From: a virus
Strand: one strand, 5' to 3'
Virus record (IMG/VR): IMGVR_UViG_3300022074_000476
Location: 1-20,411 of that record
DNA: 20,411 nt
The notes beneath the pieces are model-generated. The model was not told where the DNA came from, did no database searches, and saw only the letters and a list, made by a program, of their open reading frames with translations. Of the stretch, positions 3,036 through 18,316 are shown piece by piece. The translations under genes were made by a program, and so were the position numbers. Every line of letters begins with the position of its first letter. Within the stretch, counting starts at the first letter, position 1.

Positions 3036-3481
3036 TACTTCAACTCAATACTCAAGTTTGTTGCGTTAATTCTAAATATGTCACCCTCTGCTAATGTCTT
3101 AGTTGCATCCAAAGCACCTACAAATAATATATTGCCACTTGAACTTGCATCTACAATAAATACATGAGTTATTGTTTGTGTTCCACTATCTGTCTTAGCT
3201 GGAAAATCAATTGCACTTGTGTTCTTGGCTGTCTGTGCATCTGTTGAGTCAGCACCTATTGTTGTCCAACTTGCTGCTGCTACTTGTTGCCTAGCATACC
3301 CACCAAAACTTGCTTCTGTTAATGAACCTGTTTCAGCGGCAGATACGGCTGTTGCTAGTCCTACATAAATACTGTCACCGGGACTTGCGAATGTTACGCC
3401 CCCTATAGCTGCGTTATTTTTAAATAAAAAGTTTAACAACCTTCTTTCTAGATAGTTTGTTGCTGCGTTTGATGTAGCCAT
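3035..3481 (-). CDS. Phage tail-fibre-associated structural protein
   Basis: A 148-aa protein. The N-terminus is helical (NYLERRLLNFLFKN), followed by GDSIYVGLATAV, SFGGYARQQV and ITHVFIVDASSSGNILFVGAL, which matches a family of phage proteins that combine a short helix with a beta sandwich and sit between adaptors and fibres. The family is known to me as conserved and structural, not as an enzyme. A strong site (GGAGGG, 4 nt spacing) precedes the ATG. Its stop shares a base with the ATG of the long fibre gene, which suggests joint production with the fibre, perhaps as its connector to the tail hub. Confidence 0.65.
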   Translation of the reverse strand: MATSNAATNYLERRLLNFLFKNNAAIGGVTFASPGDSIYVGLATAVSAAETGSLTEASFGGYARQQVAAASWTTIGADSTDAQTAKNTSAIDFPAKTDSGTQTITHVFIVDASSSGNILFVGALDATKTLAEGDIFRINATNLSIELK

Positions 3482-4105
3482 TTAGCCCTCCGTTTTCATG
3501 TAAAAATTATCGCTAGAAAGTTTGTTAGACTGTTCGTTATTGATTGCTTTTACTGCCTGTTGATACATGGCTGTGTATCTATCTTGTAAATTATAGTTTC
3601 GATTAAATGCTGATGCTTCTATTAAACACGCATATAACAAAGCATCTGCTGCATTAATACTTGTCCAGTTAGAAGTGTTAGAACTGCTTAATGCTGGCAG
3701 TCTTCTTTTATATGATAACTCTAATGATAAGTTGCTTGATGGTGTTGGAGCAACATAAATAGTAGAGGTATCAAAATAAGTATAATATTTAGGAACACCA
3801 GTTGATGTTCTGTTAGGCCAGTATTCTGTTATAAATTCATCTGACTTTAATAAAAGCAATGTTCGTACATTAGAATTAATAACTTGAAGATGTTCTAACG
3901 TAACCAAATCAGTCGGCATTGTTAAAAATGGATCATTAGCTGAGAATGCTGAAGTTACCTTTCTTTTAAACTCAGGTGTAATTATATCTCTTGATATTCT
4001 TAATTCAGCTAAATCAATAAACTTATCAATCTCATTAGAAAACTCTGTGCCATCATCTTCCATAAAATCTTTTATGTTTTGAACTAATTCTGCATACGTT
4101 GTCAT
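3482..4105 (-). CDS. Phage head-tail adaptor protein (SU10-adaptor-like)
   Basis: A 207-aa protein that fits the adaptor family described for podoviruses such as SU10. Visible family features are the acidic N-terminal helix (YAELVQNIKDFMEDD), IDLAELRISRDI, the FLTMPTDLVTLEHL strand-turn, the GVPKYYTYFDTSTIYVAPTPSS segment and ELSYKRRLPAL, followed by a helical stretch near ADALLYACLIEAS. Adaptors of this type bind below the portal and close the head while giving a platform for the tail. The ATG overlaps the upstream stop (ATGA). A second adaptor-like protein lies just upstream, so this cassette probably builds a two-ring neck. Confidence 0.7.
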   Translation of the reverse strand: MTTYAELVQNIKDFMEDDGTEFSNEIDKFIDLAELRISRDIITPEFKRKVTSAFSANDPFLTMPTDLVTLEHLQVINSNVRTLLLLKSDEFITEYWPNRTSTGVPKYYTYFDTSTIYVAPTPSSNLSLELSYKRRLPALSSSNTSNWTSINAADALLYACLIEASAFNRNYNLQDRYTAMYQQAVKAINNEQSNKLSSDNFYMKTEG

Positions 4106-16801: not shown

Positions 16802-17053
16802 CTATATTCTAGTATCCCAAAGTCTAAAGGTTTCTCCAAAAGAATTCCAGACGATAGTCTTTCCATTCTCTTCTGCAACGTCATGAAACTTTTTTGCTGC
16901 TCTTTCATACTCTTCTCTTGCTTGGGAAATCTTTTTCGTTTTTCTTGATTTTTGTTCATCTGTTAAATCATTTAATCTGTTAACACATTTAGATATTGCC
17001 TTCTCTAAACTATCATCAGACATATCAGAAACAGTGGAATTGCATTCACTCAT
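16802..17053 (-). CDS. Hypothetical charged helical protein upstream of large terminase
   Basis: An 83-aa protein, strongly charged and helical (SLEKAISKCVNRLNDLTDEQKSRKTKKISQAREEYERAAKKFHDVAEE) with a more hydrophobic end KTIVWNSFGETFRLWDTRI. AGGAG sits 6 nt before the ATG, so expression is well supported. Its place directly before the large terminase would suit a small terminase, but it lacks a helix-turn-helix and the separate gene at 18640-19131 fits that role better. It may be a packaging or regulatory accessory. No family is recognised. Confidence 0.55.
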   Translation of the reverse strand: MSECNSTVSDMSDDSLEKAISKCVNRLNDLTDEQKSRKTKKISQAREEYERAAKKFHDVAEENGKTIVWNSFGETFRLWDTRI

Positions 17054-17090: not shown

Positions 17091-17411
17091 TTAGGGCTTA
17101 TTTTTATTTTCAAGCCTTGCTATGAGTCTATGTAAGTACCATTGTGCTTTTTTCAAGTCTTCAATGCTGTTATTTTTAAAAGGAAAACGCCAAATATACT
17201 TAAATATAACTTGCCAATAATAATGTTCATGACCGTCCAATTCAGTCAAATAATCTCTGTCTTGATTAACCATAGCTTCCATAGCATCAATACACTCTAT
17301 CTTAGATGATGCATAGTGAGATGGATGATTTACATTGTCAGAAGAACTCGTCAAGCTTGTTTCCTTTATTTTTAGGTTTACTTTTCCTGACTCCTTGACG
17401 TTGCCTTTCAT
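17091..17411 (-). CDS. DUF3310 protein
   Basis: A 106-aa protein whose C-terminal three-quarters match DUF3310 (SaV-like): VNHPSHYASSKIECIDAMEAM, then HEHYYWQVIFKYIWRFPFKNN and SIEDLKKAQWYLHRLIARLE. Proteins of this group occur in many phages and are sometimes called nucleotide-kinase-like, without firm biochemical proof. I place the start at the ATG at 17411, with AAAGGA about 9 nt before it. An open frame extends upstream to a TTG at 17534, but that extension (ALPFGFAFPPIMPETGTAGG) looks like a shadow of the zinc-ribbon ORF that overlaps it in another frame. The product would act on nucleotides or DNA in the cytoplasm. Confidence 0.75.
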   Translation of the reverse strand: MKGNVKESGKVNLKIKETSLTSSSDNVNHPSHYASSKIECIDAMEAMVNQDRDYLTELDGHEHYYWQVIFKYIWRFPFKNNSIEDLKKAQWYLHRLIARLENKNKP

Positions 17412-17535
17412 TTTCTTTTTTCCTTTCTTCTTCTGTTGCGTTGGGTCTGTGCCCCCAGCAGTACCAGTCTCTGGCATGATTGGGGGAAAAGCAAACCCAA
17501 ACGGTAGAGCCACATTCCTTACACTTCTTTTCAAT
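17338..17535 (-). CDS. Zinc-ribbon-like 65-aa ORF, possible ATT start
   Basis: This frame, not reachable from ATG, GTG or TTG, opens 65 codons from ATT at 17535 to TGA at 17338-17340. It reads (M)EKKCKECGSTVWVC, then DWYCWGHRPNATEEERKK and ends in a basic tail with KGNKLDEFF. C5-x2-C8 and C26-x2-H29 pair up like a zinc ribbon, with extra C15. AAGGAG stands 6 nt upstream of the ATT, a good match for translation start. A +1 shift from the preceding gene, whose stop overlaps the ATT, is the other way to reach it. It overlaps the DUF3310 start by 74 nt. Zinc-ribbon residues would be improbable in a random frame, so I consider it coding. Confidence 0.55.
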   Translation of the reverse strand: MEKKCKECGSTVWVCFSPNHARDWYCWGHRPNATEEERKKENERQRQGVRKSKPKNKGNKLDEFF

Positions 17536-17737
17536 GAGTTTCTCCTTCGTTATCCTCGTTATTAGCCCTGAATACAGTCTCTGCTCCCATCAAGAATATA
17601 AGCCAAGCTGCTTCTTCTTTTGTCGCTTGTACTTCTTTTAAGTTTTGAATTGCTGAAATGAACCATGCGTTCATTCTATCTTCGTCTATTTGAACCTCGC
17701 CTTGATCATCAGTCCACATTATTTTATTTGTTTTCAA
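17531..17737 (-). CDS. Small phage protein with TTG start
   Basis: A 68-aa protein from TTG at 17737, with GGAG 7 nt before it; the in-frame ATG at 17719 has no ribosome-binding site. It reads (M)KTNKIMWTDDQGEVQIDED, then NAWFISAIQNLKEVQATKEEAAWLIFLMGAE, an amphipathic helical centre, and an acidic end. No family recognised. Its GGAG lies in the 3' arm of a hairpin inside the upstream 37-aa ORF, so its translation may depend on ribosomes passing through that ORF. The last codon and stop overlap the possible ATT start of the zinc-ribbon ORF. Confidence 0.5.
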   Translation of the reverse strand: MKTNKIMWTDDQGEVQIDEDRMNAWFISAIQNLKEVQATKEEAAWLIFLMGAETVFRANNEDNEGETH

Positions 17738-17837
17738 GTAACTGCTCCATTAGGGGGAAGTTAACGGAGCAGTCACAATCTTCAGCACACGGCAGCAGCC
17801 GTATTTTGATTCTATGTTCTCCATTTGTTCCTGTCAA
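17724..17837 (-). CDS. 37-aa Cys-rich small ORF, TTG start
   Basis: A short frame from TTG at 17837, which overlaps the TGA stop of the putative nuclease gene (TTGA), to TAA at 17724-17726. The product (M)TGTNGEHRIKIRLLPCAEDCDC then SVNFPLMEQLLENK has Cys at 17, 21 and 23. Support comes from the stop/start overlap, the sensible amino-acid make-up and its filling of a gap that would otherwise be non-coding. A weak point is the lack of a clear ribosome-binding site. A competing 24-aa ORF (from ATG at 17823) shares this stretch in another frame. It may be a metal-binding mini-protein. Confidence 0.45.
   Translation of the reverse strand: MTGTNGEHRIKIRLLPCAEDCDCSVNFPLMEQLLENK
17741..17773 (-). 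promoter_or_regulatory. Hairpin covering the ribosome-binding site of the 68-aa gene
   Basis: ACTGCTCC (17741-17748) and GGAGCAGT (17766-17773) are exact inverted repeats, 8 bp with a 17-nt loop. In the minus-strand RNA the 3' arm holds the GGAG used by the TTG at 17737. The whole hairpin lies inside the 37-aa ORF, a layout typical of translational coupling. Confidence 0.5.
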
Positions 17838-18316
17838 TATAAAATTTCTAAATCTTTTATCTTTACATTATAGCAGTCTGCTCTAAATGTGAAGTTATTT
17901 GATGGATCTTTCTGACCTTTCTTAAAGAATGAGGCCTTATCAAAGTAATCTTCCTTCGATAATTTACCCAATATCCATGCTTTTGTGTATATATTCAACA
18001 CTCTGACGAACACATACATATCACAGTCCTGCTTAGTGCCTATTGCAGCGATACTACAGTCATAATCTGACTTAGGTTCAGAGCTACATCGCTTTGTTTT
18101 AACGTCTATACGGTTGCCTACACGGTCTATAAGGTCATAATCATAGGTATTCTTGTGTTTAGCCTTCATTCTGTCAGCTACAATGATCTCTCCTATGAAT
18201 CCTGCTATGTTTCCTGCACCATTTGTGATAGAATTGTTAAGTCTACCCATCTCATGTGCCATTTTACGAGCTTTTAATAGCTGCCCACCTGTTACATCAA
18301 CTTCTATTATGCCCAA
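17834..18316 (-). CDS. Putative PD-(D/E)XK-like nuclease
   Basis: A 160-aa protein from TTG at 18316 (GGGGGG lies about 7 nt upstream). Motifs that suggest the PD-(D/E)XK fold: GFIGEIIVADRM with Glu43, then YDYDLIDRVGNRIDVKTKR with Asp64 and the Asp71-Val-Lys73 D-x-K signature, then DCDMYVFVRV and KAWILGKLS as the later strands. Proteins of this type act as phage nucleases, resolvases or restriction-like enzymes. I do not see a DNA-binding domain outside the catalytic core. It lies between the small terminase gap and small zinc-type ORFs, so DNA processing or nucleotide salvage from host DNA is possible. The family call is from motif pattern, not a search. Confidence 0.55.
   Translation of the reverse strand: MGIIEVDVTGGQLLKARKMAHEMGRLNNSITNGAGNIAGFIGEIIVADRMKAKHKNTYDYDLIDRVGNRIDVKTKRCSSEPKSDYDCSIAAIGTKQDCDMYVFVRVLNIYTKAWILGKLSKEDYFDKASFFKKGQKDPSNNFTFRADCYNVKIKDLEILY

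Follow-up and report, generated by a model that had tools for sequence, protein, structure and literature searches.

A 65-codon zinc-finger frame in the window (the whole stretch of DNA that was analysed, 20,411 nucleotides of the IMG/VR virus record IMGVR_UViG_3300022074_000476) is very probably a functional small-protein gene, judged by its comparison with relatives, and it carries no ATG, GTG or TTG at which translation could begin. We infer that initiation probably takes place at a non-AUG codon of some kind, whether the AUA/ACG pair at 17562/17559, AUU 17535, CTG or another; the AUA/ACG pair is the preferred candidate, held tentatively and a little short of an even chance. Gene callers accept only ATG, GTG and TTG, so genes like this one are lost; with two diverged genomes in which a zinc gene is selected although it lacks such a start, non-AUG initiation in phages can be tested directly. 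The features of the locus are listed in Table 1.

Table 1. Features of the zinc-finger locus, with positions in the window.
Feature	Positions	Strand	Remarks
Zinc-finger ORF	17338..17535	-	65 aa from ATT; purifying selection and Cys/His conservation across the family
5' in-frame extension of the zinc frame (WEQRLYSGLITRITKEKL)	17536..17589	-	shared with the 3' end of the 68-aa gene
ATA (17562-17560) and ACG (17559-17557)	17557..17562	-	homologues of the relatives' start ATGs; preferred candidate start
CTG	17575..17577	-	further candidate start behind GGGAG; common to L013
ATT, start proposed by the first-pass annotation	17533..17535	-	AGT in L013
AAGGAG, SD-like site	17542..17547	-	6-7 nt to the DUF3310-frame start codon
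68-aa gene before the zinc gene	17531..17737	-	TTG start, ATG in relatives; stop overlaps ATT/TTG
DUF3310 ORF, 147 aa	17091..17534	-	frame open to TTG 17534

The core of the zinc frame is CxxC-x17-CxxH, the basic tail ends in L..FF, and the translation from ATT 17535 reads IEKKCKECGSTVWVCFSPNHARDWYCWGHRPNATEEERKKENERQRQGVRKSKPKNKGNKLDEFF. The first-pass annotation had described C5-x2-C8 and C26-x2-H29 with a basic tail, a frame without ATG, GTG or TTG start, and an AAGGAG 6 nt before ATT 17535 with the TGA of the 68-aa gene overlapping; these were confirmed, and none of the three start codons was found in frame in the window from the upstream in-frame TGA to the first Cys. Its view of ATT as the sole possible start did not hold, and the frame stays open 5' of ATT, back to the TGA before WEQRLYSGLITRITKEKL (the open frame starts WEQRLYSGLITRITKEKL|IEKKC), with the near-cognates CTG 17577, ATA 17562, ACG 17559, ATA 17553 and ACG 17550 in frame. 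The zinc gene belongs to the packaging region (TerS ... TerL), where the 68-aa gene precedes it and DUF3310 follows; TerS and nuclease-like genes lie on one side and DUF3310 and TerL on the other, and the zinc gene overlaps both the 68-aa gene and DUF3310. The 68-aa gene stops with TGA at 17533-17531 in the window and ends GCT TAG in L013, the nearest diverged relative. The 147-aa DUF3310 ORF from TTG 17534 was present as described, and the expectation that standard start rules miss the zinc gene, which overlaps the DUF3310 frame, was supported.

Relatives of the 65-aa frame were found by database search in IMG/VR, about a dozen of them diverged and from marine phages, and all carry CxxC...W[YFST]C[WY]GH or something very close to it. 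Two contigs, L001 and L002/L006, are near-identical to the window; the nearer diverged relatives are L013, L003, L096 and L008, and the further ones L014, L015/L016, L017, L018, L019/L105, L020, L023 and L103. L013, whose DUF3310 is 93% identical to that of the window and whose version is known from a single contig, was placed with the window, L001 and L006 in the window clade. Five residues before the first Cys (position -5), 12 of 13 members have I, L, V or M; tested against composition, this gives a P of about 2e-10, a value that overstates independence because the 13 members are related. The residue is Leu, encoded directly 5' of ATT, in both the window (CTC) and L013 (CTT). Residue -2 is K or R in 12 of the 13, the window and L013 among them. 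That such a pattern would hardly arise by chance was thus borne out, the relatives retaining the frame and the Cys/His pattern and every tested pair being under purifying selection.

Among GenBank phages no match covered the zinc protein (short partial hits at E 0.5, or none), PHROG gave no convincing match, and the species genomes gave one 9-residue match only. A DNA pattern scan for further genomes of the window clade returned, besides contigs already known, just two that are unrelated. Since GenBank phages and PHROG yielded no covering or convincing hit, this is a small uncatalogued family of phage zinc fingers tied to DUF3310 and the terminase region. A sequencing error is unlikely, the ATT version being present in the window and in two other contigs from different IMG samples. 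The spacing of the ligand pairs is that of TIGR04272 (CxxC-x17-CxxC) and PF23477 (zf_Tbcl_2, a probable treble-clef), and each of the two models was weakly matched by four of the nine members scanned; the window protein stayed below the curated cut-offs (21.9 vs 36 bits for TIGR04272, 23.6 vs 27 bits for PF23477). It differs from both in its last ligand, a His (CxxH) with x17 kept, and the family differs in being phage-borne, in the W[YFST]C[WY]GH signature and in the basic tail. The AlphaFold2 model of the zinc protein had a mean pLDDT of 65, about 80 in the Cys/His region, with no PDB match at E<=0.001. From fold class and neighbourhood, the protein, stabilised by zinc and basic in its tail, may bind nucleic acid or protein as an accessory in the DUF3310/terminase region.

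Compared between the window and L013 over 43 codons, the zinc frame showed dN 0.27 and dS 1.47, whereas the +1 (DUF3310) frame showed dN 0.43 and dS 0.30 with an amino acid identity equal to the neutral expectation. The amino acid identity of the zinc frame exceeded that of all 2000 neutral simulations. In all tested pairs, the comparison of dN/dS per frame, suggested beforehand as a check, gave purifying selection in the zinc frame; it was absent from the +1 frame there except for a short tail. Strong conservation of the alternative frame from TTG 17534, named beforehand together with a lack of homologues as an outcome that would speak against the zinc gene, was not seen, this frame looking neutral over the 43 codons apart from that tail.

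The zinc gene of L013 likewise has no ATG, GTG or TTG in frame, and its sequence up to the first Cys reads CTG TAC ATA GGG CGA ATA ACG AGG ATC TCG AAG GAG AAG CTT AGT GAA AAG CAG TGC; it is the one diverged relative that shares the missing start. Because the window and L013 have diverged substantially while the gene remained selected, it would have to be translated in this clade without an ATG, GTG or TTG of its own. The ATGs of the relatives indicate where initiation may lie. The zinc gene of L003 (ATG 2024), L008 (ATG 3929) and L096 (ATG 1471) begins within the 3' end of the 68-aa homologue, preceded by GAGGGG or AAGGGG, and that of L014, L016 and L017 has its ATG within a different upstream gene; since all six are so placed, a start inside the upstream gene is the family habit. 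When the loci are aligned on the codons of the 68-aa gene, the ATGs of L003 and L096 fall on ACG 17559 and that of L008 on ATA 17562, 24-27 nt upstream of the ATT position, where the window reads ATA-ACG. Substitutions between the window and L013 fit this position: from ACG 17559 to ATT, three of four are synonymous in the zinc frame and none of four in the 68-aa frame, and 5' of ATA, one of five is synonymous in the zinc frame and three of five in the 68-aa frame. On these nine substitutions in total, it appears to be near ATA/ACG 17562/17559 that the zinc frame takes over codon constraint from the 68-aa frame.

The zinc gene of the relatives starts at an ATG that lies in the preceding gene, within its 3' end; in the mechanism we propose for the window clade, where that ATG is absent and the protein is still under selection, initiation would occur at a near-cognate non-AUG codon with low protein yield. 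The likeliest codon would be the AUA/ACG pair at the homologous position, with AUU 17535 second, while CTG or other codons would take what remains of the probability of a non-AUG start. AUA and ACG are inefficient start codons, and the SD near them in the window is weak (CAGGGC, -3.1 vs -8.8 kcal/mol for AAGGAG). There is about an even chance that this phage lineage lost the AUG and kept the gene over a dS of about 1-1.5 by one of two routes, conserved AUA/ACG initiation inside the upstream gene or a +1 slip at AGG-G out of that gene.

Initiation at AUU 17535 itself is unlikely; it would depend on AAGGAG and on translational coupling to the 68-aa gene, whose UGA stop overlaps the AUU. The AAGGAG is the strongest SD of the region and well spaced to ATT (-8.8 kcal/mol), ATT is retained in L001 and L006, and the ATG at L003:2081 aligns exactly with its place; L001 and L006, however, are near-identical to the window and lend little independent support, the SD of the L003 ATG is badly spaced, and L008 and L096 have neither ATT nor another start at this codon. 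S. aureus cvfC1, which encodes a putative zinc-finger protein of 61 aa, starts with an AUU behind a strong SD, and AUU and AUA starts in S. aureus give about 10% of AUG output (PMC13009471). On the AUU reading, the window gene would resemble cvfC1 as a small putative zinc-finger gene with a non-AUG start, but cvfC1 is a cellular gene whose AUU is conserved and was mapped experimentally, whereas the window ATT is not conserved. The codon is AGT in L013 though the zinc protein stays selected, codon constraint is already in the zinc frame between ACG 17559 and ATT, and an ATT start would lose the conserved aliphatic residue -5 encoded 5' of it. An AAGGAG-type site is found in all five close loci (-8.8, -8.8, -9.1, -9.1 and -5.4 kcal/mol), as AAGGAG in the window, L013 and L003, AAGGAAGG in L096 and AAAGGA in L008, and is followed in all five by a well-spaced start in the DUF3310 frame (TTG, GTG, GTG, ATG and ATG); the UUG one base on is a better start for AAGGAG than AUU. 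This last argument is weak alone, because most TGA stops will have an NTG across them by chance. Overall, the proposal that ATT 17535 is the start is probably wrong, given the AGT in L013, the conserved residue upstream and the relatives' ATGs, which mostly do not begin at its place but upstream, inside the preceding gene.

Ribosomes could instead make a fusion protein by slipping +1 out of the 68-aa frame, whether at AGG-G (about 17569-17566) or at CAU-UGA, but this is improbable. The open zinc frame extends 5' into the 68-aa gene, the C-terminal tail of the 68-aa protein is poorly conserved, and AGG followed by G, which could re-pair on GGG, occurs in all five close loci and adjoins the opening of the zinc frame in several relatives; AGG makes up 12% of the Arg codons in the window, and the constraint switch sits just past it. 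A slip there would yield the same comparative pattern as the AUA/ACG start. Against it, L003, L008 and L096 have an in-frame ATG directly after the AGG-G place, and the different gene before the zinc gene in L014, L016 and L017 indicates that a fusion is not ancestral; homologues fused to the 68-aa protein, one of the outcomes considered earlier, were not found. The suggested prfB-like shift at the UGA received no support, since CAU-UGA in the window, GCU-UAG in L013 and CAC-UAG in L003 do not re-pair (CAU to AUU and, in L013, GCU to CUU being poor), and no RNA structure conserved at the junction was shared among the loci (z between -1.6 and +1.2). A -1 slip that would bring ribosomes from the TTG/GTG start to the zinc frame was rejected, as A.AAA slippage is possible in L008 and L096 but not in the window, L013 or L003. 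The first-pass claim of a non-canonical event therefore stands insofar as a non-AUG start or a frameshift is required, and is not supported in the two forms proposed, the ATT start and the prfB-like shift.

It is quite improbable that the clade has stopped translating the zinc frame and makes only DUF3310, from TTG 17534 or ATG 17411. The missing canonical start in the zinc frame of the window clade, the SD and DUF3310-frame NTG that each of the five close loci has at the 68-aa stop, and the DUF-frame constraint in the last approximately 10 codons of the overlap would agree with such a loss. The zinc frame nevertheless retains every ligand and is under purifying selection between the window and L013, amino acid constraint is absent from the first 43 codons of the DUF frame, and an NTG at a TGA is frequent by chance. 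Openness of the +1 frame says little, as it is open in 12 of 13 members even where it is not the frame of DUF3310. A long DUF3310 from TTG 17534 as the sole product was rejected on the unconstrained 43 codons, and the stop-free +1 frame was rejected as proof of a long DUF3310 because controls in which +1 does not lead into DUF3310 are also open.

The identity of the DUF3310 gene itself is clear, the 147-aa ORF scoring 58.1 bits against PF11753 (Pfam cut-off 24). Constraint in its frame is visible only from about ESGKVNL onward; all five close loci retain the motif [EQ]SG[KE]V.L within the tail of the zinc gene, and variation in its seven columns falls at zinc codon positions 1, 2 and 3 in four, three and one of them. 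Identical DUF-frame residues in the zinc tail numbered 59, against 37.6 simulated. Because DUF-frame constraint reaches into the zinc tail, DUF3310 in the five close loci probably starts upstream of the motif. In the window, the start is probably ATG 17411 (AAAGGA, 8 nt) or TTG 17534, and ATG 17411 with its AAAGGA is likely an internal start. In L003, L008, L096, L014, L016 and L017 an ATG, the DUF3310 start, follows within a few bases of the zinc stop. At this place (window 17091-17340) the window and L013 read AAT, so this ATG too is missing from the clade.

In E. coli, infC and pcnB have AUU starts, and prfB is read through a +1 frameshift. The window locus resembles them in a putative non-AUG start behind an SD and in an SD near a stop codon; it differs in that no IF3-type autoregulation is expected, there is no CUU-U-type re-pairing at the stop, and ATT is not kept in L013. 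In T7 gp1.7, a Cys-rich N-terminus precedes a DUF3310-like C-terminus, by eye in the same order as in the window, but gp1.7 is one polypeptide whereas the zinc and DUF3310 parts of the window lie in separate frames; homology of the zinc protein to gp1.7 was rejected, with no detectable sequence similarity.

Several further observations were made around the locus. The +1 frame of the zinc gene, free of stops in all but one of the 13 members and without amino acid conservation, showed a joint deficit of stops against synonymous shuffles. On its 5' side, the zinc gene has successive out-of-frame overlaps with different upstream genes; in L014 (1049-1243), L017 (1040-1246) and L016 (about 1090-1286) a small gene that looks like a ribbon-helix-helix by eye, for which Pfam gave no match, overlaps it by about 80 nt in another frame. 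About 31 nt (AATGACAAAAAGYTACAGTTGGTGGAACACAAG), at and just after the 68-aa stop, are nearly identical between L096:1492-1525 and L008:3953-3986, whose genomes are otherwise diverged. After DUF3310, the window carries an 83-aa gene (16802-17053), which is reduced to a short remnant in L002/L006 (L002 about 3480-3540), contigs otherwise near-identical to the window. Between TerS and TerL, a 160-aa gene (17834-18316) has a TTG start with a very strong SD (-11.0 kcal/mol) and a VDVKT motif that hints at a PD-(D/E)XK nuclease, and L003, L008 and L096 carry an HNH_3-like gene in the TerS-TerL region.
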